A model generated the notes under the pieces. The model saw only the letters and a list, made by a program, of their open reading frames with translations, was not told the origin of the DNA and did no database searches. From assembly GCF_036227485.1 (NCBI RefSeq), contig NZ_CP109479.1, positions 4,774,001 to 4,838,000 on the forward strand: 64,000 nucleotides of DNA, given 5' to 3'. Positions 20,840 to 51,710 of this stretch are shown here, one piece after another (the first letter of the stretch is position 1; the number at the start of each line of letters is the position of its first letter). A program made the position numbers and the translations under genes. The stretch is from Streptomyces sp. NBC_01451. GTDB lineage: Bacteria > Actinomycetota > Actinomycetes > Streptomycetales > Streptomycetaceae.

Positions 20840-21052
20840 TTGTCCACAGTCCGTGGCGCTACCTGTGCACAGTGTGCGGGAACAGCTGTGCCCCCTGTCA
20901 CCGACCGGAGTTTTCCCAGGTCAGACAGGGGGCGAACAAGCTTGCGATTACCGGTGTGGCAGTCGTACCGGCGTCAACACTCGATGAGTTATCCACAGAT
21001 CGTCGTCTTTTCCCCAGGCGGGGTGTGGAAAATCAATCGCAGCTGTGGATAA
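20840..21052. promoter_or_regulatory. DnaA-box cluster
   Basis: Boxes seen: TTGTCCACA 20840-20848 (+), TTATCCACA 20989-20997 (+), TTTTCCACA 21024-21032 (-), TTATCCACA 21044-21052 (-), plus a degenerate copy CTGTGCACA at 20863-20871. The two TTATCCACA boxes form a 13-bp perfect inverted repeat (20986-20998 and 21043-21055). The cluster fills the gap between the converging rhomboid and crgA genes. A datA-like DnaA-titration role is inference; an oriC-proximal DnaA-box cluster that limits replication has been described in Streptomyces. Confidence 0.75.
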
Positions 21053-39143: not shown

Positions 39144-39196
39144 GACACCGGACAGCAGGTGCGCCGGTGGCCGCCGGCGGTCAGCTGTCCGGTGTC
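39144..39196. terminator. bidirectional hairpin between rhodanese and acyl-CoA dehydrogenase genes
   Basis: 13-bp perfect arms (39144-39156 and 39184-39196) enclosing a GC-rich inner dyad; the right arm overlaps the stop codon of the minus-strand gene. Confidence 0.75.
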
Positions 39197-40343
39197 AGCC
39201 CAGCTGGTGTGCCGCGAGCAGGTCGCCCAGTGCATCCTCGTGGGCCGCCGCCGGGCCGAGCGACAGTTCCAGGTACTTGGCCCAGGCGTGGTAGCGGTGC
39301 AGCGGGTAGTCGGTGTCGGCGCCGAAACCGCCGTGCAGGTGCTGCGCGGTCTGCACGACCCTGCGTACCCCCTCCGAGGCCCAGATCTTGGCGACGGCCA
39401 CGTCCCCGGAGACGGGCAGCGCCCCGGCGGCCCTCGTGCTTGTCCGCCATGCCGCCTGCCACAGCGTGACCTCCATCGCGCGCAGGTCGATGTACCGGTC
39501 GGCGGCCTGCACGGCGACGGCCTGGAAGGTGGCCAGCGGATACCCGAACTGCTCCCGCTTGCCGGTGTAGTCGCTGGTCATGCCGAGCACCGCCGTGCCC
39601 AGTCCGAGCGCCAGCGCGCAGGTCCCGACGGTCAGCAGATCGCGCAGCCACGGCCAGGCGGCGTCGGCGTCGAGGACGTACCGGTCGGGCAACCGCACGG
39701 ACTCCAGGCGCAGTTCGCCGAGCCGTTCACCGGAGGTGGATATCTGCTCGGCGAGGGTGACGCCGGCGAGCGGGGCGCCCTCGTGGACGCGGGGGACGAG
39801 GGCGAGGACGGTCCGGTCGGCGTTCGTGCGGGCGGGTACGAGGACGAAGTCGGCGTTGTGCGCCCAGGGGACCGCGGTCTGGACTCCGTCGAGGACCCAG
39901 AGGTCGCCGTCCCGGCCCGCGGTCACGGCGAGTTCGGCGGGGTCGTGGCCGGTGCGGCCGTGTGCGGCGACGGTGAGGACGAGGTCGCCGGTTCCGGCCC
40001 GGCGCAGCACCTCGTCCTTCAACTCGCCCTTCCCGTAGGCCTGTACGGTCGCCGCCGCGGCGCAGCTCTCCAGCAGGGGCACTCTGGCCAGCACCTTCGC
40101 GGACTCGCGCAGGACGAGGCACAGGGCGATGGTGTCGAGGCCGGCTCCGCCGAACTCCTCGTCGAGCAGCAGGCTCAGCAGATCCGCACCGGCGAGCCTC
40201 TCCCACAGGACCCGGTCGAAGTCGTCGGCCACGGCACCCGCGACGAGCGACGGACTGGGCACCCCGTCCGGAGCGACCCCGCCGAACACCGCCCGGGCCG
40301 CCTCGACCGCCGCCTGCTGCTCCTCACTGAACCTGAAGTCCAT
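39195..40343 (-). CDS. acyl-CoA dehydrogenase family protein
   Basis: 382 aa flavoprotein that should desaturate an acyl-CoA. Helical N-domain, beta domain around residues 120-220, and C-terminal helices with QHLHGGFGADTDYPLHRY. At the position of the usual catalytic Glu (TEYP in medium-chain enzymes) the sequence reads TDYP. This pattern is seen in subunits of the alpha2beta2 steroid side-chain enzymes; no partner subunit lies nearby. ATG at 40343. Its upstream region holds a KstR-type palindrome and a PaaR-type palindrome. Confidence 0.88.
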   Translation of the reverse strand: MDFRFSEEQQAAVEAARAVFGGVAPDGVPSPSLVAGAVADDFDRVLWERLAGADLLSLLLDEEFGGAGLDTIALCLVLRESAKVLARVPLLESCAAAATVQAYGKGELKDEVLRRAGTGDLVLTVAAHGRTGHDPAELAVTAGRDGDLWVLDGVQTAVPWAHNADFVLVPARTNADRTVLALVPRVHEGAPLAGVTLAEQISTSGERLGELRLESVRLPDRYVLDADAAWPWLRDLLTVGTCALALGLGTAVLGMTSDYTGKREQFGYPLATFQAVAVQAADRYIDLRAMEVTLWQAAWRTSTRAAGALPVSGDVAVAKIWASEGVRRVVQTAQHLHGGFGADTDYPLHRYHAWAKYLELSLGPAAAHEDALGDLLAAHQLG

Positions 40344-40392: not shown

Positions 40393-40406
40393 TAGAACAG
40401 GTTCTA
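40393..40406 (-). promoter_or_regulatory. KstR-type operator upstream of acyl-CoA dehydrogenase
   Basis: TAGAACAGGTTCTA fits the KstR consensus TNNAACNNGTTNNA at every fixed position and is a perfect palindrome around a 2-base centre. On the minus strand it abuts a TATCTT -10-like box, so binding should repress transcription. Confidence 0.65.
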
Positions 40407-40446: not shown

Positions 40447-40460
40447 ACCGATCGTTCGGT
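40447..40460. promoter_or_regulatory. PaaR-type palindrome (copy 1)
   Basis: Reverse complement reads ACCGAACGATCGGT, identical to the copy between paaN and paaH. Lies in the divergent gap acd/DUF5819. Confidence 0.65.
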
Positions 40461-40506
40461 CCGTCCGAGTCGATGGTCCGGCGGCGGGCCGTAGGGTGTC
40501 AACGGC

Positions 40507-40515
40507 TGTGGACAA
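40507..40515 (-). promoter_or_regulatory. DnaA box TTGTCCACA in acd/DUF5819 gap
   Basis: Exact box on the minus strand, 47 bp from PaaR-type copy 1. The 312-bp gap 40344-40655 otherwise shows no gene. Confidence 0.5.
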
Positions 40516-40655
40516 CTCCCGGATCCGACCTCCCGGGCGCTGTTCATCGGCCGTGCAGGTGTGCGAAGAGGGCTGCGCCGGGCGGGTGGCTCTGAGTACC
40601 GTGCCGGTGCGCACGCCACGGGTGCGGTGGGACCGGTATCGGGAGACGGGGCGGA

Positions 40656-41435
40656 ATGGACGCGTACGAGGCAGGCCCGGACGCCGGGCACGGGCGCGAC
40701 GAGCCGGGCGGACCAGGCGAGCCCGAGGGCTCCCCCGGTCCCGCAGAGGCGCCCCGCCCGGCACTGGCCGCCCTCTCCCTCCCGTACCAGATCGGCGCCG
40801 CCCTGGCCGTCGCGGTCGTCGCCGTCGCCGCGTGTGTCCACCTCGGCATGGTCTTCCTGCACGTCGCGCCCTCGAACACGGTCACCAAGGAGCACACCCG
40901 GACGATCGACGACTGGATCTACCCGGAGTTCGAGCAGAACTGGAAGCTCTTCGCCCCCAACCCGCTGCAGCAGAACGTCGCCGTCGAGGTCCGCGCCGAT
41001 GTCCGTAGCGCGGCCGGCGACGCCCGGACGACCGGCTGGTACGACCTCTCCGCGCTGGACGGCAGAGCCATCGACGGCAATCCGCTGCCGAGCCACACCC
41101 AGCAGAACGAACTGCGCCGGGCCTGGGACTTCTTCCTCGCCTCGCACGACGCCCAGAACCGTCCCTCGGGCCTGCGCGGCGCCCTCGCCGAGCAGTACCT
41201 GCGCCGCATCGTCGTCCTGCGTCTCGGCCACGAGGACGCGGCCGGCCCCGGCGGCACGATCGACCGCGTCCAGGTCCGCTCCCGCAGTACGAACGTCCGA
41301 CCACCCGAGTGGAGCCAGGAGCAGGTGCCCGAGACGCCCACGTACCGCGTACTGTCCTGGTGGCCCGTCCCCGACGGCGAGAAGGCCGCCGAGGCGGCGG
41401 GCACGGCCGGCGCGACGACGGGGGACGGCTCATGA
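40656..41435 (+). CDS. DUF5819 family membrane protein
   Basis: 259 aa. Disordered Pro/Gly N-terminus, one membrane helix (AALAVAVVAVAACVHLGMVF), then an extracytoplasmic domain containing FEQNWKLFAPNPLQQN, the DUF5819 hallmark also seen near HTTM proteins. Stop overlaps the next ATG (ATGA). The pairing with an HTTM (vitamin K-carboxylase-like) gene is recurrent in Streptomyces and suggests a membrane complex of unknown chemistry. Confidence 0.83.
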   Translation: MDAYEAGPDAGHGRDEPGGPGEPEGSPGPAEAPRPALAALSLPYQIGAALAVAVVAVAACVHLGMVFLHVAPSNTVTKEHTRTIDDWIYPEFEQNWKLFAPNPLQQNVAVEVRADVRSAAGDARTTGWYDLSALDGRAIDGNPLPSHTQQNELRRAWDFFLASHDAQNRPSGLRGALAEQYLRRIVVLRLGHEDAAGPGGTIDRVQVRSRSTNVRPPEWSQEQVPETPTYRVLSWWPVPDGEKAAEAAGTAGATTGDGS

Positions 41436-42733
41436 CCCGCCTCGTCCCCGTGGCCGCCCGTTCGCTCGCCCGGTCGGTCTCCCGTGGCATCGGCCGCGTC
41501 AGCGAGACCGCCCTGGGCCCCCACCAGACCGCCGTCGTGCGGATCGGTTTCTCCGCGACCTGGCTGCTGTTCCTGCTGCGCGAGTTCCCGCACCGGCAGG
41601 AGCTGTACGGCCCCGACGGCCCCTGGAGCTGGGATCTCGCCCAGCAGCTCATCGCGGACAACGGCGCCTTCACGGTCCTGATGTGGTCCAGCAGCCAGTT
41701 CTGGTTCGAGCTGGTCTACGTCCTCGCGGTCCTCGCCAGTCTCCTTCTCCTGCTCGGCTGGCGGACCCGCACCATGTCCGTGCTCTTCATGGTCGGTGTG
41801 CTCTCGCTCCAGAACCGCAGCATCTTCATGGGCGACGGCGGAGACAACGTCCTGCACCTGATGTCCCTCTACCTGGTGTTCACGCGCTGCGGCCAGGTGT
41901 GGTCCCTGGACGCCCGGCGCGCCCGAAAGGCACGCGCACGCGTGGCCCTCGGCGACGACCCCGCCCCCGACCGCGTGGGACCCGTGCTCTGGTGCGTCCT
42001 CGGGGTGTTCCTCCTGGGCGGTATCGCGGCCGGCGAGTTCGGCGGCGACCCGCTGGCCCCCCGAATCCTCTGGGGCATGTGGCTGGCACAGGGGGTGTGG
42101 TGGGTCGTGGCCCGCCGCGGGCAGGGCGGCGAGGGGCGGATGTTCCTCGACATCGTCGGCAACCTCGTGCACAACGCGGCCCTCTTCGTGATCATGGCCG
42201 AGGCCTGTCTGATCTACGCGACGGCCGGCTGGTACAAGATCCAGGGCTCGCGCTGGCAGGACGGCACCGCCGTCTACTACCCGCTCCACCTCGACTACTT
42301 CTCCCCGTGGCCCGCGCTCTCCGACCTGATGTCGTCGAGCGGGACGATGGTGATGCTGGTGACGTACGGGACGGTGGCCGTGCAGGTCGCCTTCCCCTTC
42401 ACGCTCTTCAACCGGCGGGTCAAGAACGTCCTGCTGGCCGTGATGATGACCGAGCACGCCGTGATCGCCGTCGTCCTCGGACTGCCCTTCTTCTCCCTCG
42501 CGATGATCGCCGCGGACGCCGTGTTCCTGCCGACGTCCTTCCTGCGCCGCCTCGGCGACGGGGCCACACGCGCGCGGGTGCGCCTTCTCGACCGTCTGCC
42601 GGGCAACGCGCGTGCCGTGCCGGACCGGAGGGCCTCTGACACGGCCGAAGTGAGTACGGCCGACGAGAGGGCGGTGGAGGAGACGGCGGCGGACGAGACG
42701 GCCGAGCCTCCGCACGTAGGCTTCAACGCATGA
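41432..42733 (+). CDS. HTTM domain (vitamin K-dependent gamma-carboxylase-like) membrane protein
   Basis: 433 aa with several membrane helices and the HTTM layout: VVRIGFSATWLLFLL, WSWDLAQQ, and ATAGWYKIQGSRWQDGTAVY, which resembles the conserved HTTM loop. HTTM proteins include gamma-glutamyl carboxylase relatives, but bacterial members mostly have unknown substrates. Begins in the stop of the DUF5819 gene; its own stop overlaps the TrmH-family start (ATGA). Ala/Glu/Thr-rich cytoplasmic tail. Confidence 0.85.
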   Translation: MTRLVPVAARSLARSVSRGIGRVSETALGPHQTAVVRIGFSATWLLFLLREFPHRQELYGPDGPWSWDLAQQLIADNGAFTVLMWSSSQFWFELVYVLAVLASLLLLLGWRTRTMSVLFMVGVLSLQNRSIFMGDGGDNVLHLMSLYLVFTRCGQVWSLDARRARKARARVALGDDPAPDRVGPVLWCVLGVFLLGGIAAGEFGGDPLAPRILWGMWLAQGVWWVVARRGQGGEGRMFLDIVGNLVHNAALFVIMAEACLIYATAGWYKIQGSRWQDGTAVYYPLHLDYFSPWPALSDLMSSSGTMVMLVTYGTVAVQVAFPFTLFNRRVKNVLLAVMMTEHAVIAVVLGLPFFSLAMIAADAVFLPTSFLRRLGDGATRARVRLLDRLPGNARAVPDRRASDTAEVSTADERAVEETAADETAEPPHVGFNA

Positions 42734-43521
42734 CGGACGCAGCGGACGCAGCGACGGGGACGGCGATCGACGTGGCGGTAGCCGACTGGCAGCGGCTCGC
42801 AGGCGCTTCCGTCCTGCTCGACGGCTTCCACGCCCTCAAGCACGCCGTCCGTTTCGGCGCGCGGATCCCGGTCGCCGTGACGACAGACCGGCGGGCGACC
42901 CTGGATCTCGCCGACGAGCTGGCTCCGGACGTACGGGACACCCTGGACGCCCTCCTGACCGAGGTGCCGGAGACGGCGTACACGTCCCTCGTGCCGCGCC
43001 CGCACCCCACCGCGGTGGCCGCCCTGGCCGTACGGCCCTCCCGCGCGGCCAACCTGGAGGCGCTCGCGCGCACACCCCGGACCGCGCCCGTCGTCGTCCT
43101 CGACAACCCGCGCAACCTCGGCAACGCCGGGGCGGTGATCCGGCTCGCCGCAGGTTTCGGGGCCACCGGGGTCGTCATGACCGGGACCCTCGACCCCTGG
43201 CACCCCACCGTCGTACGCGGTGGGGCCGGGCTGCATTTCGCGACCGCCGTCGAGCGACTCACGGTGGCCGAGCTGCCGTCCGGGCCGGTGTTCGCGTTCG
43301 ACGCGGAGGGCGACGACATCCGGGGGCTGAAGCTCCCGGACGACGCCGTACTCGCCTTCGGCTCCGAGCGCAGCGGGCTGTCGCCCGAACTACGCGCGCG
43401 TGCCGACCACCTGGTGTCCCTCCCGATGCGCCCCCAGGTCTCCAGCTACAACCTGGCGACCAGCGTGGCCATGACGCTGTACCACTGGAGCGCCACCGGG
43501 GGACGGGCCTTCGAGGCCTGA
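42730..43521 (+). CDS. TrmH/SpoU-family RNA methyltransferase
   Basis: 263 aa, predicted to add a methyl group to ribose 2'-OH in rRNA or tRNA. SPOUT knot motifs: NPRNLGNAGAVIRLA (motif 1), LAFGSERSGLS (motif 2) and LPMRPQVSSYNLATSVAMTL (motif 3). The N-terminal substrate-binding part is divergent. ATG overlaps the HTTM stop, so the three genes form one transcript. Confidence 0.92.
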   Translation: MTDAADAATGTAIDVAVADWQRLAGASVLLDGFHALKHAVRFGARIPVAVTTDRRATLDLADELAPDVRDTLDALLTEVPETAYTSLVPRPHPTAVAALAVRPSRAANLEALARTPRTAPVVVLDNPRNLGNAGAVIRLAAGFGATGVVMTGTLDPWHPTVVRGGAGLHFATAVERLTVAELPSGPVFAFDAEGDDIRGLKLPDDAVLAFGSERSGLSPELRARADHLVSLPMRPQVSSYNLATSVAMTLYHWSATGGRAFEA

Positions 43522-43530
43522 TCGGGTCTC

Positions 43531-45237
43531 CTAGGCCTGGCGGCGCACCTCCACCACCCGGAACCTGTTCGCCACGAACGCGCCGTCGCACAGGGCCGCG
43601 TTCGCCGCCGGGTTGCCGCCCGAGCCGTGGAAGTCGGAGAAGGCGGCCGTCTGGTTGACGTACACCCCACCGGTCAGGTTCAGCGACAGCTGGGCGCACT
43701 CCTCCAGGCAGGCCTCCTGGACGGTCTGTTCGAACTCCGGGTCGGTCGTGTACGCGCCGACCGTCATCGCGCCCTTGTCCCGGACGGTCCGCCGCAGCAG
43801 TTCCACCGCGTCCTCTGGCGAGTCGACCGCGACGGCGAAGGAGACCGGGCCGAAGGACTCGCTCATGTACGCGGCCTCGGAGTCCGCCCCGTCCCAGTAC
43901 TTCCGCGTGCCGTCGAGTTTCACGACGACCGGCGTACGGACCACCGCTTCGGGGAAGTCGGGGTTCACGATCTCCCGTGAGGCCAGGGCGACCTCGCCGA
44001 GCCCGGCCGCCGCCTCCAGCCGTGCCTTCACGTCGGGGTTGACGATCGCGCCCAGCAGCCCGTTCGCGCGCGCGTCGTCGCCCAGCAGGCCCCCGACAGC
44101 CGCGGCGAGGCCGGAGACCACCTCGTCGTACGACTTGTGGCCCTCCTCCGTACGGATGCCGTCGCGGGGGATGAGGAGGTTCTGCGGGGTGGTGCACATC
44201 TGGCCGCTGTACAGGGAGAGGGCGAAGGCGAGGTTCGACAGCATGCCCTGGTAGTTGTCGGTCGACTCCACGATCACCGTGTTGACGCCGGCCTTCTCCG
44301 TGTAGACCTGCGCCTGGCGGGCGTTGGCCTCCAGCCAGTCGCCGAACGCCGTCGAGCCGGTGTAGTCGATGATCCGGATCTCCGGGCGGGTCGCCAGGGT
44401 CTTCGCGATGCCCTCGCCGGGGCGCTCGGCCGCCAGTGCCACCAGGTTCGGGTCGAAGCCGGCCTCCGCCAGGACCTCGCGCGCGATGCCGACCGTCAGT
44501 GCGAGCGGCAGTACCGCGCGCGGGTGGGGCTTCACGAGGACCGCGTTGCCCGTGGCCAGGGACGCGAACAGGCCCGGATAGCCGTTCCACGTGGGGAACG
44601 TGTTGCAGCCGATGACGAGGGCGATGCCGCGCGGGACCGGCGTGAACTCCTTCGTGAGGGCCAGCGGGTCGCGCTTGCCCTGGGGCTTGCTCCACTCTGC
44701 GGTGCCGGGGGTGCGGACCTGCTCCGCGTACGCGTAAGCCACCGCCTCCAGGCCGCGGTCCTGGGCGTGCGGGCCGCCCGCCTGGAACGCCATCATGAAG
44801 GCCTGGCCGCTGGTGTGCATGACCGCGTGCGCGAACTCGTGCGTCCGGCCGCTGATCCGCTTGAGGATCTCCAGGCAGACCATCGCGCGCACCTCCGCGC
44901 CCGCGTCCCGCCAGGCGCGCTGGCCGGCCTTCATGGCGGGCAGCAGCACGTCGACGTCGGCGTGCGGGTAGGTGACACCCAGCTCGATGCCGTACGGGGA
45001 CACCTCGCCGCCCACCCAGTCGTCCGTGCCGGGCTGGCCGAGGTCGAGGCGGGTGTTCAGGACGGCGTCGAAGGCGGCCCTGCCCGCGGCCAGGTCCAGA
45101 CTGCCGTCCTCCCCGTACGCCTTGGGGTGTTCGGGGTGCGGGGACCAGTACGCGCGTGTGCGGATCGCTTCCAGCGCCTGGTCGAGGGTGGACCGGTGCT
45201 GGGCGATCAGCTGGTGCGCGGTGAGTTCGGCGGCCAT
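43531..45237 (-). CDS. paaN: phenylacetic acid degradation protein PaaN
   Basis: 568-aa aldehyde-dehydrogenase-superfamily protein. Motifs: GCNTFPTWNGYPGLFASLATGNAVLVKPHP (shown in part: LFASLATGNAVLVKPHP), DYTGSTAFGDWLE, and nucleophile Cys in YSGQMCTTPQNL. PaaN acts in oxidative ring-cleavage steps of phenylacetate catabolism or related aldehydes. ATG at 45237. Divergent from paaH across a gap with a PaaR-type operator; the paaABCDE oxygenase is not in the window. Confidence 0.9.
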   Translation of the reverse strand: MAAELTAHQLIAQHRSTLDQALEAIRTRAYWSPHPEHPKAYGEDGSLDLAAGRAAFDAVLNTRLDLGQPGTDDWVGGEVSPYGIELGVTYPHADVDVLLPAMKAGQRAWRDAGAEVRAMVCLEILKRISGRTHEFAHAVMHTSGQAFMMAFQAGGPHAQDRGLEAVAYAYAEQVRTPGTAEWSKPQGKRDPLALTKEFTPVPRGIALVIGCNTFPTWNGYPGLFASLATGNAVLVKPHPRAVLPLALTVGIAREVLAEAGFDPNLVALAAERPGEGIAKTLATRPEIRIIDYTGSTAFGDWLEANARQAQVYTEKAGVNTVIVESTDNYQGMLSNLAFALSLYSGQMCTTPQNLLIPRDGIRTEEGHKSYDEVVSGLAAAVGGLLGDDARANGLLGAIVNPDVKARLEAAAGLGEVALASREIVNPDFPEAVVRTPVVVKLDGTRKYWDGADSEAAYMSESFGPVSFAVAVDSPEDAVELLRRTVRDKGAMTVGAYTTDPEFEQTVQEACLEECAQLSLNLTGGVYVNQTAAFSDFHGSGGNPAANAALCDGAFVANRFRVVEVRRQA

Positions 45238-45350
45238 CAGGGACCAACTCCTCGTCTCAAGAGCACTTCGTTGAGCTCATGACCCGGGGCATGACTGGGA
45301 CATGAACAAGGGCATGACCTGGGCAGAAAAGGCACGACAGAGTTAGAGTA

Positions 45351-45364
45351 ACCGAACGATCGGT
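45351..45364. promoter_or_regulatory. PaaR-type palindrome (copy 2)
   Basis: ACCGAACGATCGGT, matching the corynebacterial PaaR core ACCGNNCGNNCGGT. A TAGAGT -10-like box (45344-45349) for paaH immediately precedes it, so binding should block transcription start. Confidence 0.72.
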
Positions 45365-45388
45365 CGGGACAAGGGGGTCCGCCGCATC

Positions 45389-45397
45389 TGTGGACAA
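45389..45397 (-). promoter_or_regulatory. DnaA box TTGTCCACA upstream of paaH
   Basis: Exact box on the minus strand, 25 bp from PaaR-type copy 2 and 24 bp before the paaH start codon. Confidence 0.5.
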
Positions 45398-45420
45398 CGC
45401 CGTGCGGGAGGATCACGCAC

Positions 45421-46935
45421 ATGACAGCACTCGACCTCAGCAGCCCCGTGGCCGTCGTCGGCACCGGCACCATGGGCCAGGGCATCGCCCAGGTCGCGCT
45501 GGTCGCCGGTCACGACGTACGGCTGTTCGATGCCGCGCCAGGGCGGGCCCGGGACGCCGCCGACGCGATCGTCGAGCGCCTCGACCGGCTTGTCGAGAAG
45601 GACCGGCTGACGGCGGCCGACCGGGACGCCGCACGGGGCCGGCTGCACGCCGCCGGGAGCCTTTCCGAACTCGCCGACTGCTCCCTCGTCGTCGAGGCCG
45701 TCCTCGAACGGCTCGACGTGAAGCAGAAGCTCCTGCGCGACCTGGAGGACGTGGTCGACGACGACTGTCTGCTGGCCACCAACACCTCCTCGCTGTCCGT
45801 CACCGCCATCGGGGGCGTCCTGCGCAACCCCGGGCGGTTCGTGGGGCTGCACTTCTTCAACCCGGCGCCGCTGCTGCCCCTCGTGGAGGTCGTCTCCGGG
45901 TTCGCCACCGACGTCACCTCGGCCACGCGCGCGTACGAGATGGCCCGCGCCTGGGGCAAGACCCCGGTCGCCTGCGCCGACACCCCCGGCTTCATCGTCA
46001 ACCGGCTCGCCCGGCCCTTCTACGCGGAGGCCTTCGCGGCGTACGAGGCACAGTCCGCCGACCCCGCCACCATCGACGCGGTGCTGCGCGAGTGCGGCGG
46101 GTTCAGGATGGGCGCCTTCGAACTGACCGACCTGATCGGGCAGGACGTCAACGAGGCCGTCACCCACTCCGTGTGGCAGGCCTTCTTCCAGGACGTGCGG
46201 TTCACGCCCTCGCTCGCCCAGCGGCGGCTCGTCGAGTCGGGCCGCCTCGGCCGCAAGACCGGGCAGGGCTGGTACGAGTACGGGGACGACGCCGAGCGCG
46301 CCGAACCGCACACCGCGGAGCAGGCCCAGGCGCCCGCGTACGTCGTCGCCGAGGGCGACCTGGGCCCCGCGTCCGACCTCCTCGCGCTGATCCGCGAGGC
46401 GGGCGTTCCCGTCCGTGAGGACGAGGAGGACCACGGGACCCGGCTGGTACTGCCCGGCGGCGGCCAGCTGGTCCTCGCCGACGGGCAGACCAGCGTCGAG
46501 TTCCGTGACGTCGTCTACTTCGACCTCGCCCTCGACTACCGGCGCGCCACCCGCATCGCCCTGTCCGCCTCCCAGGACACCCAGCCGCAGACCCTCTCCG
46601 AGGCCATCGGCCTGTTCCAGGCGCTCGGCAAGGACGTCAGCGTCCTCGGCGACACCCCCGGCATGATCGTCGCCCGTACGGTGGCCAGGATCGTCGACCT
46701 CGCGCACGACGCCGTCGCCAAGGGCGTCGCCACCGAGGAGGACGTCGACACGGCGATGCGTCTGGGCGTCAACTACCCGCTCGGGCCCTTCGAATGGAGC
46801 CGCAGGCTCGGCCGGAGCTGGGCCCACGAGATCCTCGACGAACTGCACCAGCGCGACCCGAGCGGACGGTACGCGCCGTCCCTCGCGCTCTACCGCCACG
46901 CGTACGCCACCGACAAGCGGGAGGGCACCCCATGA
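45421..46935 (+). CDS. paaH: 3-hydroxyacyl-CoA dehydrogenase
   Basis: 504 aa. NAD-binding N-domain with GTGTMGQGIAQVAL, NTSSLSVTAIG, and GLHFFNPAPLLPLVEVV; two C-terminal 3HCDH helical domains (near residues 190-285 and 410-500) in tandem, as in PaaH/3-hydroxyadipyl-CoA dehydrogenases. Oxidises 3-hydroxyacyl-CoA in phenylacetate or beta-oxidation. ATG at 45421 with GGGAGG upstream. Stop overlaps the TetR start. Confidence 0.92.
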   Translation: MTALDLSSPVAVVGTGTMGQGIAQVALVAGHDVRLFDAAPGRARDAADAIVERLDRLVEKDRLTAADRDAARGRLHAAGSLSELADCSLVVEAVLERLDVKQKLLRDLEDVVDDDCLLATNTSSLSVTAIGGVLRNPGRFVGLHFFNPAPLLPLVEVVSGFATDVTSATRAYEMARAWGKTPVACADTPGFIVNRLARPFYAEAFAAYEAQSADPATIDAVLRECGGFRMGAFELTDLIGQDVNEAVTHSVWQAFFQDVRFTPSLAQRRLVESGRLGRKTGQGWYEYGDDAERAEPHTAEQAQAPAYVVAEGDLGPASDLLALIREAGVPVREDEEDHGTRLVLPGGGQLVLADGQTSVEFRDVVYFDLALDYRRATRIALSASQDTQPQTLSEAIGLFQALGKDVSVLGDTPGMIVARTVARIVDLAHDAVAKGVATEEDVDTAMRLGVNYPLGPFEWSRRLGRSWAHEILDELHQRDPSGRYAPSLALYRHAYATDKREGTP

Positions 46936-47522
46936 CCACCGCCAAGCGCGACACGTACACCCCGACGACGCTGCTCCAGGTCGCCGTCCAGGTGTTCAAC
47001 GAGCGCGGTTACGACGGCACCTCCATGGAGCACCTCTCCAGGGCCGCGGGCATCTCCAAGTCGTCGATCTACCACCACGTCACCGGCAAGGAGGAGCTGC
47101 TGCGCCTGGCCGTCAGCCGGGCGCTGGACGGCCTCTTCGGGATCCTCGACGAGGAGCACGCGCGCGTGGGGACCGCCGCCGGGCGCCTGGAGTACGTCGT
47201 ACGGCGCATGGTCGAGGTGCTCATCGCCGAACTGCCGTACGTGACGCTGCTGCTGCGGATGCGCGGCAACACCGACACCGAGCGCAGGGCGCTGGAGCGG
47301 CGCCGGGACTTCGACCACCGGGTCGCCGACCTGCTCAAGGCCGCCGCCGCCGAGGGGGACATCCGCGGTGACGTGGAGGTGCGGCTCGCGACGCGGCTCG
47401 TCTTCGGGATGATCAACTCGGTCGTGGAGTGGTACCGGCCCGACGGACGCGGGATGGGCGAGCGCGAGGTCTCCGACGCGGTGGTGCGGCTGGTCTTCGG
47501 GGGGCTGCGCAACCCGGAGTGA
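46932..47522 (+). CDS. TetR/AcrR family regulator, PaaR-like
   Basis: 196 aa. N-terminal helix-turn-helix (VAVQVFNERGYDGTSMEHLS, then AAGISKSSIYHHVTGKEEL), and C-terminal ligand/dimer domain with YVTLLLRMRGNTDTE. ATG at 46932 lies inside the paaH stop (ATGA), so it is coupled to paaH and probably autoregulated through the palindrome at 45351. Likely ligand an aryl- or acyl-CoA, by analogy with PaaR; this is inference. Confidence 0.88.
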   Translation: MTTAKRDTYTPTTLLQVAVQVFNERGYDGTSMEHLSRAAGISKSSIYHHVTGKEELLRLAVSRALDGLFGILDEEHARVGTAAGRLEYVVRRMVEVLIAELPYVTLLLRMRGNTDTERRALERRRDFDHRVADLLKAAAAEGDIRGDVEVRLATRLVFGMINSVVEWYRPDGRGMGEREVSDAVVRLVFGGLRNPE

Positions 47523-47541
47523 GCCGCCCGGCGGCGGTGCC

Positions 47542-48042
47542 TCAGGCCTCCGGTCCCAGGTCCTCCTCCTCGAACACCAGCAGTGTGCGGGTGCTGAGCA
47601 CCTCCGGGATCGCCTGGAGGCGCATCAGGACCAGCTCGCGCAGTGCCTTGTTGTCGGGGGTGTGGACCAGCAGGAGCACGTCGAAGTCGCCGCCCACCAG
47701 GGCGATGTGGTCGGCGCCGGGGAGCTGTCGCAGCTGCTCGCGGACCGTCCGCCAGGAGTTCTGGACGATCTTCAGGGTGATGTACGCCGACGTGCCCTGT
47801 CCGGCGCGTTCGTGGTCCACGCGGGCACCGAAGCCGCGGATCACGCCGTCCTCGATGAGGCGGTTGATGCGCGCGTAGGCGTTGGCCCGCGAAACGTGCA
47901 CGCTTTCGGCCACGGAACGGATCGAGGCGCGGCCGTCCGCCTGGAGCATCTGCAGGATGGCCTGATCAATGGCGTCCAGCGGACGGGGCGGCGGCGGGGT
48001 GCCGCCGCCTTCCGCGCGTTCGGCCATTTGTTCAGGTGCCAT
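47542..48042 (-). CDS. Lrp/AsnC family regulator (BkdR-like)
   Basis: 166 aa. Pro/Gly-rich N-tail, helix-turn-helix at residues about 30-70 (ILQMLQADGRASIRSVAESV, HVSRANAYARINRL), and an RAM ligand domain (HIALVGGDFDVLLLVHT). In Streptomyces avermitilis an AsnC/Lrp regulator BkdR is divergently encoded from the branched-chain dehydrogenase genes, exactly as here. ATG at 48042 with GGAGG/GGGGGG upstream. Confidence 0.88.
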   Translation of the reverse strand: MAPEQMAERAEGGGTPPPPRPLDAIDQAILQMLQADGRASIRSVAESVHVSRANAYARINRLIEDGVIRGFGARVDHERAGQGTSAYITLKIVQNSWRTVREQLRQLPGADHIALVGGDFDVLLLVHTPDNKALRELVLMRLQAIPEVLSTRTLLVFEEEDLGPEA

Positions 48043-48082
48043 GTCCCCCCGCCTCCCTGTCATGGACGTACTGCGTCCATCT

Positions 48083-48114
48083 CAGGCTGTGGAGAACCGT
48101 TTGTCCACAGCCTG
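48083..48114. promoter_or_regulatory. inverted repeat with DnaA box between Lrp regulator and E1alpha gene
   Basis: CAGGCTGTGGA and its exact complement TCCACAGCCTG, 10-bp spacing. The right arm includes TTGTCCACA (48101-48109). Candidate Lrp-type operator or DnaA site. Confidence 0.5.
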
Positions 48115-48143
48115 AAGGTGCCTGTAGCCAAAATGTGCCGACG

Positions 48144-48157
48144 ACCGAACAATCGGT
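48144..48157 (+). promoter_or_regulatory. PaaR-type palindrome (copy 3)
   Basis: ACCGAACAATCGGT, one base from copies 1 and 2, 60 bp before the E1alpha start codon. Confidence 0.6.
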
Positions 48158-48217: not shown

Positions 48218-49351
48218 ATGACGGTCATGGAGCAGCGGGGCGCATACCGGCCCACGCCGCCGCCCGCCTGGCAGCCCCGTACCGACCCCGCGCCGCTGCT
48301 GCCCGACGCGGCTCCGTACCGCGTCCTCGGCACCGAGGCGGCGGCGCAGGCGGATCCCGGGCTGCTGCGGCGGCTGTACGCGCAGTTGGTGCGCGGGCGC
48401 CGGTACAACGTGCAGGCCACCGCCCTCACCAAGCAGGGCCGGCTCGCCGTGTACCCCTCCAGCGTCGGCCAGGAGGCCTGCGAGGTGGCCGCCGCGCTCG
48501 TCCTGGAGGACCGCGACTGGCTCTTCCCCAGCTACCGGGACACGCTCGCCGTGGTCGCCCGGGGCGTGGACCCCGTACAGGCGCTGACGCTGCTGCGCGG
48601 CGACTGGCACACCGGGTACAACCCGCGCGAGCACCGGGTGGCGCCCCTGTGCACCCCCCTCGCGACTCAGCTGCCGCACGCCGTGGGGCTCGCGCACGCC
48701 GCCCGGCTCAAGGGCGACGACGTGGTCGCGCTGGCCATGGTCGGCGACGGCGGCACCAGCGAGGGCGACTTCCACGAGGCGCTGAACTTCGCCGCCGTGT
48801 GGCAGGCGCCGGTCGTCTTCCTGGTCCAGAACAACGGCTTCGCGATCTCCGTGCCGCTCGCCAAGCAGACCGCCGCCCCGTCGCTGGCCCACAAGGCCGT
48901 CGGCTACGGGATGCCGGGCCGCCTGGTCGACGGCAACGACGCGGTCGCCATGTACGACGTGCTGAGCGACGCCGTACGCCACGCGCGCGCGGGTGGTGGT
49001 CCCACGCTCGTCGAGGCGGTGACCTACCGCGTGGAGGCGCACACCAACGCCGACGACGACAAGCGCTACCGGGCCGACTCCGAGGTCACCGCCTGGCGCG
49101 AGCACGACCCGATCGACCTCCTGGAACAGGAGCTCACCGCGCGCGGACTGCTCGACGAGGACGGCATCAGGGCCGCGCGCGAGGACGCCGAGACGCTCGC
49201 CGCCGACCTGCGCGCCCGGATGAACCAGGACCCGGCGCTCGACCCCATGGACCTGTTCGCCCAGGTGTACGCCGAACCCACCCCCCAACTGCGCGAGCAG
49301 CGGGCCCAGTTGCGGGCCGAGCTCGCGGCCGAGGCGGAGGGGACGCACTGA
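48218..49351 (+). CDS. 2-oxoacid dehydrogenase E1 alpha subunit (branched-chain type)
   Basis: 377 aa. Thiamine-diphosphate subunit that decarboxylates a 2-oxoacid. TPP motif GDGGTSEGDFHEALNFAA, then VQNNGFAIS; phosphorylation-loop equivalent YRVEAHT. The sequence pattern SSVGQEA and the E1beta/E2 neighbours fit branched-chain (Bkd) complexes feeding fatty-acid starter units in Streptomyces, but substrate cannot be proven here. ATG at 48218 with GAGGAGG upstream. Confidence 0.9.
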   Translation: MTVMEQRGAYRPTPPPAWQPRTDPAPLLPDAAPYRVLGTEAAAQADPGLLRRLYAQLVRGRRYNVQATALTKQGRLAVYPSSVGQEACEVAAALVLEDRDWLFPSYRDTLAVVARGVDPVQALTLLRGDWHTGYNPREHRVAPLCTPLATQLPHAVGLAHAARLKGDDVVALAMVGDGGTSEGDFHEALNFAAVWQAPVVFLVQNNGFAISVPLAKQTAAPSLAHKAVGYGMPGRLVDGNDAVAMYDVLSDAVRHARAGGGPTLVEAVTYRVEAHTNADDDKRYRADSEVTAWREHDPIDLLEQELTARGLLDEDGIRAAREDAETLAADLRARMNQDPALDPMDLFAQVYAEPTPQLREQRAQLRAELAAEAEGTH

Positions 49352-50355
49352 TGACCACCGTCGCCCTCAAGCCCGCCACCATGGCGCAGGCCCTCACGCG
49401 CGCGATGCGCGACGCCATGGCCACCGACCCCGCCGTGCACGTCATGGGTGAGGACGTCGGCACCCTCGGCGGAGTCTTCCGGGTCACCGACGGGCTCGCC
49501 AAGGAGTTCGGCGAGGACCGCTGCACGGACACCCCGCTCGCCGAGGCGGGCATCCTCGGGGCGGCCGTCGGCATGGCCATGTACGGTCTGCGGCCGGTCG
49601 TGGAGATGCAGTTCGACGCGTTCGCCTACCCCGCGTTCGAGCAGCTGATCTCGCACGTCTCCCGGATGCGCAACCGCACGCGCGGGGCCATGCCCCTGCC
49701 GATCACCGTCCGCGTGCCCTACGGCGGCGGCATCGGCGGCGTCGAACACCACAGCGACTCCTCCGAGGCGTACTACATGGCGACCCCGGGACTCCACGTC
49801 GTCACACCCGCCACGGTCGCCGACGCGTACGGCCTGCTGCGGGCCGCCATCGCCTCCGACGACCCGGTGGTCTTCCTGGAACCCAAGCGCCTGTACTGGT
49901 CGAAGGACTCCTGGAACCCCGACGAGCCGCCGGCCGTTGAACCGATCGGACGCGCGGTGGTGCGGCGCCCGGGCCGCAGCGCCACGCTCATCACGTACGG
50001 GCCGTCCCTGCCCGTCTGCCTGGAGGCGGCGCGGGCGGCGGAATCGGAGGGCTGGGACCTGGAGGTCGTCGACCTGCGTTCCCTGGTCCCGTTCGACGAC
50101 GAGACGGTGTGCGCCTCGGTACGGCGGACCGGGCGGGCCCTCGTCGTGCACGAGTCGGGCGGCTACGGCGGCCCGGGCGGGGAGATCGCGGCCCGCGTCA
50201 CGGAGCGCTGCTTCCACCACCTGGAGGCGCCGGTCCTGCGCGTCGCCGGGTTCGACATCCCGTACCCGCCGCCGATGCTGGAACGGCACCACCTGCCCGG
50301 TGTCGACCGTGTGCTGGACGCCGTGGGACGGCTGCAGTGGGAGGCGGAACGCTGA
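49351..50355 (+). CDS. 2-oxoacid dehydrogenase E1 beta subunit (branched-chain type)
   Basis: 334 aa. Transketolase pyrimidine and C-terminal domains: MGEDVGTLGGVFRVT, TPLAEAGILGAAVGMA, MQFDAFAYPAFEQL, GGIGGVEHHSDS and VVDLRSLVPFD. ATG overlaps the E1alpha stop (TGATG). Pairs with E1alpha as a heterotetramer. Confidence 0.92.
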   Translation: MTTVALKPATMAQALTRAMRDAMATDPAVHVMGEDVGTLGGVFRVTDGLAKEFGEDRCTDTPLAEAGILGAAVGMAMYGLRPVVEMQFDAFAYPAFEQLISHVSRMRNRTRGAMPLPITVRVPYGGGIGGVEHHSDSSEAYYMATPGLHVVTPATVADAYGLLRAAIASDDPVVFLEPKRLYWSKDSWNPDEPPAVEPIGRAVVRRPGRSATLITYGPSLPVCLEAARAAESEGWDLEVVDLRSLVPFDDETVCASVRRTGRALVVHESGGYGGPGGEIAARVTERCFHHLEAPVLRVAGFDIPYPPPMLERHHLPGVDRVLDAVGRLQWEAER

Positions 50356-51710
50356 TGGCACAGGTACTGGAGTTCAGGCTCCCCGACCTCGGCGAGGGAC
50401 TCACCGAGGCGCTGATCGTGCGCTGGCTGGTCGAGGTCGGCGAGGTCGTCGCCGTCGACCAGCCGGTCGTCGAGGTCGAGACGGCCAAGGCGATGGTCGA
50501 CGTGCCGTGTCCCTACGGGGGTGTCGTCACCGCCCGCTTCGGCGAGGAGGGCACCGAACTCCCCGTCGGGTCACCCCTGGTGACGGTGGCCGTCGGGACA
50601 CCGGCCCACCCCGACCCCGCCGACGACCCCGCCGAGGGCTCCGGGAACGTGCTCGTGGGATACGGCACCTCCGAGGCACCCGCCCGGCGACGGAGGGTAC
50701 GGCGGGAACAGGCGGCGCCCGCCGCTCCGGTGCCGCTCAAGGACACGGCAGCACAGGACACGGCAGTACAGGCCCCCGCCCCGGCCCGGGTCGACGGCCC
50801 CGTTGCGGTCATCTCGCCGCTCGTGCGCAGGCTCGCCCGCGAGAACGGCCTGGATCTGCGCGAGTTGGCCGGTTCCGGGCCCGACGGACTGATCCTGCGC
50901 GCCGACGTGGAGCGTGCCCTGCTCGCCGGTGCCGCGCGAACCGAGTCCCCGGCCCCGCCCGCGACCCCGGTGCCGGCCGCGAGCCCGGTGCCTGTCGCAC
51001 ACCCCGCCGCCGCCTCCGCCGAAGGTACGCGCGTCCCCCTCAAGGGCATCCGCGGCGCCGTCGCCGACAAGCTCTCCCGCAGCCGGCGCGAGATCCCGGA
51101 CGCGACCTGCTGGGTGGACGCCGACGCGACGGAACTGATGCGCACGCGCGTGTGGATGAACGCGGGCGGCGGCCCGAAGATCTCCCTTCTCGCCCTGCTC
51201 GCCCGTATCTGCACCACCGCCCTGGCCCGGTACCCCGAGCTGAACTCCACGGTCGACCTGGAGGCCAGGGAGATCGTCCGGCTCGACCGCGTCCACCTCG
51301 GCTTCGCCGCCCAGACCGAACGCGGGCTCGTCGTCCCCGTCGTACGGGACGCCCACACCAGGAACGCCGAATCGCTCAGCGCGGAGATCGCGCGCCTGAC
51401 CGAGGCGGCCCGGACCGGCACCCTCACCCCCGCCGAACTCACCGGCGGGACCTTCACGCTGAACAACTACGGCGTGTTCGGCGTCGACGGCTCCACGCCG
51501 ATCCTCAACCACCCCGAGGCGGCCATGCTCGGCGTCGGCCGGATCGTCCCCAAGCCGTGGGTGCACGAGGGCGAACTGGCGGTGCGCCAAGTCGTCCAGC
51601 TGTCGTTCACCTTCGACCACCGGGTGTGCGACGGCGGTACGGCGGGCGGTTTCCTGCGCTATGTGGCGGACTGTGTCGAACAGCCGGCGGTGCTGCTGCG
51701 CACACTGTGA
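50355..51710 (+). CDS. 2-oxoacid dehydrogenase E2 (dihydrolipoamide acyltransferase)
   Basis: 451 aa. One lipoyl domain (residues 4-80) with lipoylation Lys45 in ETAKAMVDVP; Ala/Pro linker; E3/E1-binding domain (ISPLVRRLARENGLDLREL); catalytic domain with HRVCDGGTAGGF (catalytic His and Asp). Its ATG overlaps the E1beta stop (TGATG). No E3 gene is in the window. Confidence 0.92.
   Translation: MAQVLEFRLPDLGEGLTEALIVRWLVEVGEVVAVDQPVVEVETAKAMVDVPCPYGGVVTARFGEEGTELPVGSPLVTVAVGTPAHPDPADDPAEGSGNVLVGYGTSEAPARRRRVRREQAAPAAPVPLKDTAAQDTAVQAPAPARVDGPVAVISPLVRRLARENGLDLRELAGSGPDGLILRADVERALLAGAARTESPAPPATPVPAASPVPVAHPAAASAEGTRVPLKGIRGAVADKLSRSRREIPDATCWVDADATELMRTRVWMNAGGGPKISLLALLARICTTALARYPELNSTVDLEAREIVRLDRVHLGFAAQTERGLVVPVVRDAHTRNAESLSAEIARLTEAARTGTLTPAELTGGTFTLNNYGVFGVDGSTPILNHPEAAMLGVGRIVPKPWVHEGELAVRQVVQLSFTFDHRVCDGGTAGGFLRYVADCVEQPAVLLRTL

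Follow-up and report, generated by a model that had tools for sequence, protein, structure and literature searches.

The DNA analysed here, referred to as the window, is a stretch of 64,000 nucleotides from the chromosome of Streptomyces sp. NBC_01451 (NZ_CP109479.1, positions 4,774,001 to 4,838,000), and this report is focused on three 14-bp sites in it that resemble operators of PaaR, a TetR-type repressor of phenylacetate (paa) genes, together with a TetR-family gene and the paa and 2-oxoacid dehydrogenase (bkd) genes around them. Site 1 (40447-40460, reverse strand) adjoins acd (39195-40343, reverse strand), which encodes an acyl-CoA dehydrogenase (PF00441, PF02771), with a gene for a DUF5819 protein (40656-41435, forward strand; PF19136) on the far side of the gap; site 2 (45351-45364, forward strand) lies between paaN and paaH-paaR, and site 3 (48144-48157, forward strand) between bkdR and bkdA2. 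An earlier note on this DNA had given the same coordinates and strands for the three 14-mers and had named their gaps as acd/DUF5819, paaN/paaH, and Lrp-type bkdR/bkdA, and is correct on both counts. It had also called the sites palindromes; they are imperfect dyads, base pairs being matched at 6/7 in sites 1 and 2 and at 5/7 in site 3. Sites 1 and 2 are identical, and ACCGANCGNTCGGT is found exactly at only two places in the genome, namely these; site 3 (ACCGAACAATCGGT) carries A instead of G at position 8. The PaaR of Corynebacterium glutamicum, reportedly described by Chen et al. in 2012, is said to recognise the motif core ACCGNNCGNNCGGT and to have phenylacetyl-CoA as its effector, and the agreement with this core that the earlier note had seen holds for sites 1 and 2, whereas site 3 is one base off. 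We know of no bkd target of the C. glutamicum protein.

The paaN gene (43531-45237, reverse strand) encodes an aldehyde dehydrogenase of the phenylacetate pathway, scoring 977 bits with TIGR02288 (PaaN_2) against a cut-off of 579, and is divergent from the gene of a paaH-type 3-hydroxyacyl-CoA dehydrogenase (45421-46935, forward strand), which scores above the cut-off of NF006124 and reaches 571 bits with TIGR02279 (PaaH), under the cut-off of 669. The start of the TetR-family gene (46932-47522, forward strand; Pfam TetR_N, PF00440, and TetR_C_24, PF17932) overlaps the paaH stop by 4 nt. Its product is an ortholog of SCO3833, its best match in the PDB is 2IAI, deposited as SCO3833 (E 2.5e-100), and the host genome holds one match to it at E<=1e-30. 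The bkdR gene (47542-48063, reverse strand) encodes an Lrp/AsnC-type regulator of the SCO3832 type (Pfam AsnC_trans_reg) and adjoins bkdA as in SCO3831/SCO3832. Across the gap with site 3 lie bkdA2 (48218-49351, forward strand; E1 alpha, PF00676), bkdB2 (49351-50355, forward strand; E1 beta, PF02779/PF02780) and bkdC2 (50355-51710, forward strand; E2 acyltransferase, PF00198 with lipoyl and E3-binding domains; scanned as 50352-51710, the start being read from the sequence). The genes for the three components E1 alpha, E1 beta and E2 are thus contiguous, as expected of a branched-chain 2-oxoacid dehydrogenase (bkd) locus.

Whole-genome motif counts refer to the host assembly of 10.27 Mb. The genome-wide search that the earlier note had called for returned exactly sites 1-3 as exact matches to ACCGAACNATCGGT, all within 8 kb, against approximately 0.15 expected from base composition, and a reversed-pattern control has 0 matches; a chance origin of the sites is ruled out by these counts. 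Six one-mismatch sites elsewhere in the genome were considered as further targets and set aside; each of them is overlapped by a reading frame, which may or may not be a gene, of 100 codons or more. Among 199 Streptomyces genomes, 195 carry one or more exact ACCGAACNATCGGT sites, the control pattern being matched in 3/199, and among the matches listed across these genomes the sites mostly stand two or three close together.

Conservation of the sites and of the regulator

Relatives were compared in 80 named Streptomyces loci, the best 80 of 567 by similarity to the TetR protein (83-97% identity), in which the gene order is kept. Exact copies of sites 2 and 3 occur in 80/80 of them; the loss of sites in relatives that keep the genes, which the earlier note had named as speaking against its interpretation, is thus not seen for these two. 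In an alignment of the flanks, the conservation of 1.00 at the sites themselves arises by construction, since the rows were found by exact match, and only the flanks are informative: over 60 bases, conservation is 0.70 and 0.93 on the two sides of site 2 and 0.93 and 0.71 on those of site 3. Read on the paaN strand, site 2 is framed in 80/80 loci by two hexamers, TTGNNC and TACNCT, with a spacing of 16 nt. In the host these are a predicted -35 hexamer, TTGTCC (45367-45372, reverse strand; TTGNNC in 80/80 loci, TTGTCC in 63), and a predicted -10 hexamer, TACTCT (45345-45350, reverse strand; TACTCT in 77/80, TACCCT in 3/80). A sigma-70 consensus scan around site 2, covering both predicted paaN hexamers, called no promoter.

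The regulator and the sites occur together. A TetR match (E<=1e-30) is found in 194/199 Streptomyces genomes, as a single copy in most and as two in 8, and all 194 have a site; the four genomes free of exact sites (G001, G037, G120, and G155) are all without a TetR match (Fisher 8e-8, kinship among genomes being ignored). No E1 alpha of the type encoded at the bkd2 locus was found in the same four: G120 and G001 have E1 alpha matches of 35-39% identity only, and G037 and G155 have one E1 alpha of a type encoded in a paa cluster plus another of 41% identity. Whole loci, rather than single sites, were therefore lost.

Beyond Streptomyces, a TetR match (E<=1e-25) is present in 75/246 genomes of the class, in 28/103 genera, and 20 of 53 TetR matches from other genera were taken with their surrounding DNA. 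A relative of the TetR gene lies near paaA or paaN in 16/20 of these loci, and when the regions at the starts of paaA, paaN, and the TetR gene (n=37) were searched for a site within two mismatches of ACCGAACGATCGGT, the sequence of site 2, 21 contained one, distributed over 15/20 loci. With 300 scrambled dyads, the same 37 regions gave a mean of 0.19 and a maximum of 15, and none reaches 21. Because of its paa neighbours and of the operator type seen beside its relatives in other genera, the TetR gene is assigned by place and operator, and the protein at 46932-47522 is very probably PaaR.

PaaR and the bkdR/bkdABC2 promoter region

The sites, their conservation, and the gene order around them are observed directly; binding, repression, and the effector we infer. 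On this basis it is likely, although well short of certain, that the TetR protein is the Streptomyces PaaR, acting at sites 2 and 3, and that site 1 is the leftover operator of a replaced paa operon, with acd mainly under another regulator. By analogy with characterised PaaR proteins, PaaR would be a repressor that lets go upon binding phenylacetyl-CoA. Site 2 falls within the predicted paaN promoter and also precedes paaH-paaR, which leads to the proposal that PaaR regulates its own gene along with a portion of the phenylacetate pathway, and from the variant site 3, with its AACAAT centre, it would control the bkdR/bkdABC2 promoter region too. The paaN/paaH-paaR and bkdR/bkdABC2 promoters are thus probable PaaR targets, and the earlier interpretation keeps its PaaR-type operator, its TetR regulator, and these two promoter regions, and loses acd/DUF5819 as a regulon member. 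If true, the degradation of aromatic compounds and that of 2-oxoacids would be coupled by a single PaaR switch in much of the genus.

Several observations weigh against this proposal. The figure of 80/80 is less independent than it looks, because the loci were picked by TetR similarity and keep the gene order, and one flank each of sites 2 and 3 is also well conserved (mean 0.93). One genome, G197 (81% complete, 790 contigs), has three exact sites and no TetR match, and in 5/20 other-genus loci the tested start regions hold no site that comes within two mismatches. Furthermore, bkd genes are found in 0/20 other-genus PaaR loci; the bkd link therefore rests on Streptomyces.

Characterised PaaR systems, described here from the accessible parts of the cited reports, offer several points of comparison. 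In S. pristinaespiralis, PaaR is SSDG_03033 (Zhao et al., 2015), presumably an ortholog of host paaR, with the putative site AACGA-N4-TCGGT (PMC10933834, PMC7089894); it is a TetR-type repressor of paa genes, and its putative site fits the host sequence AACGAATGGTCGGT before paaA, although only paa genes are named in the accessible text, with no mention there of a bkd promoter or of ACCGAACNATCGGT sites. PaaR control of paa genes was thus already reported in that species (PMC10933834); the bkd2 link, which the earlier note had not seen described, was not found in the literature searched, with primary regulon papers and RegPrecise, where it may already be listed, beyond reach. In Burkholderia cenocepacia, one repressor, PaaR (BCAL0210), serves several separate paa promoters through the operator ACCGACCGGTCGGT, which lies between predicted -35 and -10 elements, an arrangement that the conserved hexamers may repeat for paaN at host site 2; its reported operators are in paa clusters, and the Streptomyces set adds bkdR/bkdABC2 (PMC2770484). 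Thermus thermophilus PaaR (TTHA0973), also of TetR type, is released by phenylacetyl-CoA (PMC9493321) and has a 14-bp site, AACnAACGTTnGTT (PMC6651687), which differs from the host sites in its outer half-site letters. A survey of Actinomycetes, with Streptomyces among them, reports that phenylacetate clusters have PaaR as their dominant local regulator, and in its accessible part gives neither operator sites nor a bkd target (PMC13186573).

The chances are not far below even that bkd2 is an ordinary branched-chain 2-oxoacid dehydrogenase and that PaaR tunes general acyl-CoA supply rather than phenylalanine breakdown. The S. coelicolor bkd2 locus (bkdA2 = SCO3831, bkdR = SCO3832) is identical to the host locus in genes and order (SCO3832-SCO3829), and its bkdA2/B2/C2 genes are annotated as branched-chain; it differs in that predicted MtrA sites are listed for it and PaaR receives no mention in the accessible text (PMC12323332). 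In S. albus, the main complex during growth on valine is the one labelled 'BCDH II', which could be of the host bkd2 type, although the genes behind the label are not evident from what is accessible of that report (PMC8176718). Deletion of bkdR in S. albus left valine-degradation genes largely unchanged, a result that says nothing on PaaR, and raised and shifted polyketide production, which makes the bkdR/bkd2 promoter a lever of practical interest (PMC8176718).

Against an ordinary branched-chain role stands the position of the nearest E1 alpha relatives examined outside the locus, which are encoded directly before paa genes. Two genomes with neither a PaaR match nor an exact site, G155 and G037, carry genes for E1 alpha, E1 beta, and E2 ahead of paaA, paaC, and paaE, all in the same orientation; the G155 cluster also encodes an enoyl-CoA hydratase domain between E2 and paaA, and its paaA bears the name of an epoxidase subunit. 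The E1 alpha proteins of the two genomes share 59-64% identity with host bkdA2, which is the best of five host matches to the paa-cluster E1 alpha, the next being at 45%. In a tree with a distant-paralog root, they group with the 81 E1 alpha proteins from site 3 loci (support 0.986), and the remaining E1 alpha types in the comparison fall outside this group. The two genomes count as one case because they are close relatives (94% in E1 alpha). From this association, bkd2 may make phenylacetyl-CoA, the expected inducer of PaaR, and the PaaR link would give bkd2 a testable substrate. The conversion of phenylpyruvate to phenylacetyl-CoA by a pyruvate-dehydrogenase-like complex was suggested in S. 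pristinaespiralis (PMC7089894). A more far-reaching proposal, made tentatively and less likely to be right than wrong by a wide measure, is that bkdABC2 encodes, as its real or as an additional activity, a phenylpyruvate dehydrogenase making phenylacetyl-CoA, so that PaaR would hold source and sink in one switch and phenylalanine breakdown would be self-amplifying, with BkdR layered on. If true, the same circuit would also supply phenylacetyl-CoA to antibiotic biosynthesis, for instance to that of phenylglycine-bearing compounds. The bkdABC-paa clusters occupy L277 7059-15140 and L278 5323-13359, and a MerR-type gene follows in L277.

Somewhat unlikely is a narrower role in which PaaR has no direct targets besides the paa genes and, through site 3, the divergent bkdR, any effect on bkdABC2 being indirect through BkdR. 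In its favour, the distance from site 3 is 80 bases to the start of bkdR and 60 to that of bkdA, so that either promoter may be the target, and a conserved inverted pair, CTGTGGAGAAC/TTGTCCACAG, is located beside bkdR. Conversely, site 3 points to bkdA as site 2 points to paaH and site 1 to acd/paaA, which is weak evidence, and the occurrence of E1 alpha relatives in a paa cluster hints at the enzyme itself as the meaningful target.

Site 1, acd and the remote paa operon

The site 1 region was assessable in 66 of the 80 named loci, and its state follows paaA rather than acd. Where paaA is adjacent, site 1 is exact in 35/35 loci. Where acd lies within 1.5 kb (n=20), it is exact in 7, has one mismatch in 2 and two mismatches in 1, and is lacking within two mismatches in 10; where acd is more than 1.5 kb off, it has one mismatch in 4/4 and is exact in 0/4, and with neither gene it is exact in 0/7. 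An exact site 1 is thus found in 35/35 loci with paaA versus 7/31 of the rest (Fisher 4e-12). By contrast, a different palindrome, TAGAACAGGTTCTA (40393-40406), occurs in 20/20 loci with acd within 1.5 kb, in 0/35 with paaA, and in 0/11 others, and in the host it is the sole exact TAGAACNNGTTCTA match in the genome and the probable own operator of acd. It resembles what we take to be the KstR motif, and its presence at 20/20 acd-adjacent loci fits an operator of the TNNAACNNGTTNNA type, presumably that of KstR. Site 1 is therefore assigned to the paaA operon, and acd probably has a different operator.

These counts go against the place that the earlier note had given acd/DUF5819 in the regulon: 13/20 relatives that keep acd are without the exact site, a loss that the note itself had listed as telling against its interpretation, and acd was rejected as a conserved PaaR target. 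That all three sites are active operators and acd a true regulon member is accordingly improbable. The exact site 1 in the host and in 7/20 loci with acd within 1.5 kb speaks for it, and also weighs against the relic view of site 1, which leaves these cases unexplained; however, 10 of the 13 deviating acd loci have no site within two mismatches, TAGAACAGGTTCTA is constant in the same 20 loci, and the PaaR-less genome G001 (79% complete, L085) has retained acd, DUF5819, and HTTM but lacks any site within two mismatches. Site 1 is probably a relic of the operator of a former paa operon, and acd is unlikely to be under PaaR control.

The host has its paaA at 9.09 Mb, 4.27 Mb distant from the three-site locus, and this gene is of the other paaA lineage. 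A predicted variant operator, ACCGAACGAATGGTCGGT, lies approximately 120 bp upstream of the paaA domain match, and within it AACGAATGGTCGGT fits AACGA-N4-TCGGT; no second TetR gene was found beside this paaA among the ten reading frames scanned in that 20-kb region. Twenty further paaA regions, picked as lying away from the TetR gene, comprise 17 of the remote type (89-93% identity to host paaA) and 3 of the local type (77-78%). Upstream of the 17 remote-type genes, ACCGAACGAATGGT is present in 14, another PaaR-like site in 2, and none in 1. In the paaA tree, the host gene, the 17 remote genes, and the 2 paaA genes of the bkd-paa clusters form one lineage (support 0.979), and the 35 local paaA genes stand apart from it with other genera between, the root being an arbitrary outside tip and some inner supports being low.

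The two paaA lineages are directly observed, and from them we infer a history of loss and replacement. In its plain reading, a related paa operon arrived or pre-existed elsewhere, the local one was lost, and the operator stayed. The former paa operon would have disappeared from this locus, replaced by the related operon at 9.09 Mb with its own variant operator, and acd would have come to adjoin the leftover site 1 while being mainly under another regulator. Site 1 would then exemplify an operator left after its operon was replaced elsewhere, and would caution against equating a perfect motif in a promoter gap with a functional target. That another TetR-family protein binds the motif, with the linked TetR a bystander, is very improbable, since site loss accompanies loss of the TetR gene and the motif type lies beside its relatives in other genera, even though many TetR proteins are generally known to recognise related palindromes.

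Two further features were observed near remote-type paa genes. A second PaaR-like sequence, ACCGAATGGTCGGT, lies approximately 100-130 bp upstream of the first before remote-type paaA in L252, L256, L257, L259, L260, L263, and L265, and a gene for a group II intron-type reverse transcriptase/maturase (L088 14068-15849) is located a few kb from remote paa genes.

DnaA-box-like elements near the sites

A DnaA-box-like sequence, TTNTCCACA, is present in all three site gaps (40507-40515, 45389-45397, 48088-48096, and 48101-48109). Their spacing from the sites is almost constant: CTGTGGANAAC lies at +37 from site 2 in 69/72 matches and at -57 from site 3 in 48/48, and in 1.5 Mb of the 80 related loci it occurs 194 times at site gaps and 2 times elsewhere. 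The conserved TGTGGANAA in all three gaps was first read as a BkdR site; origin-proximal (oriC) DnaA boxes would be the simpler reading, because dnaA is 1.2 kb before the window (chromosome 4770877-4772835, L304) and the boxes are confined, in the stretches examined, to the region from approximately 40 kb before the window through its end. Specifically, the counts of TTNTCCACA are 11 for the window, against 0.37 expected, 7 for the preceding 40 kb, and 0 for the 120 kb that follow. The conserved inverted repeat CTGTGGAGAACCGTTTGTCCACAG (48087-48110), beside the bkdR start, may be a DnaA-box pair or a BkdR operator. Furthermore, four DnaA-box-like sequences lie within approximately 210 bp at 20840-21052, approximately 21 kb from the window start, and form a possible cluster outside oriC.

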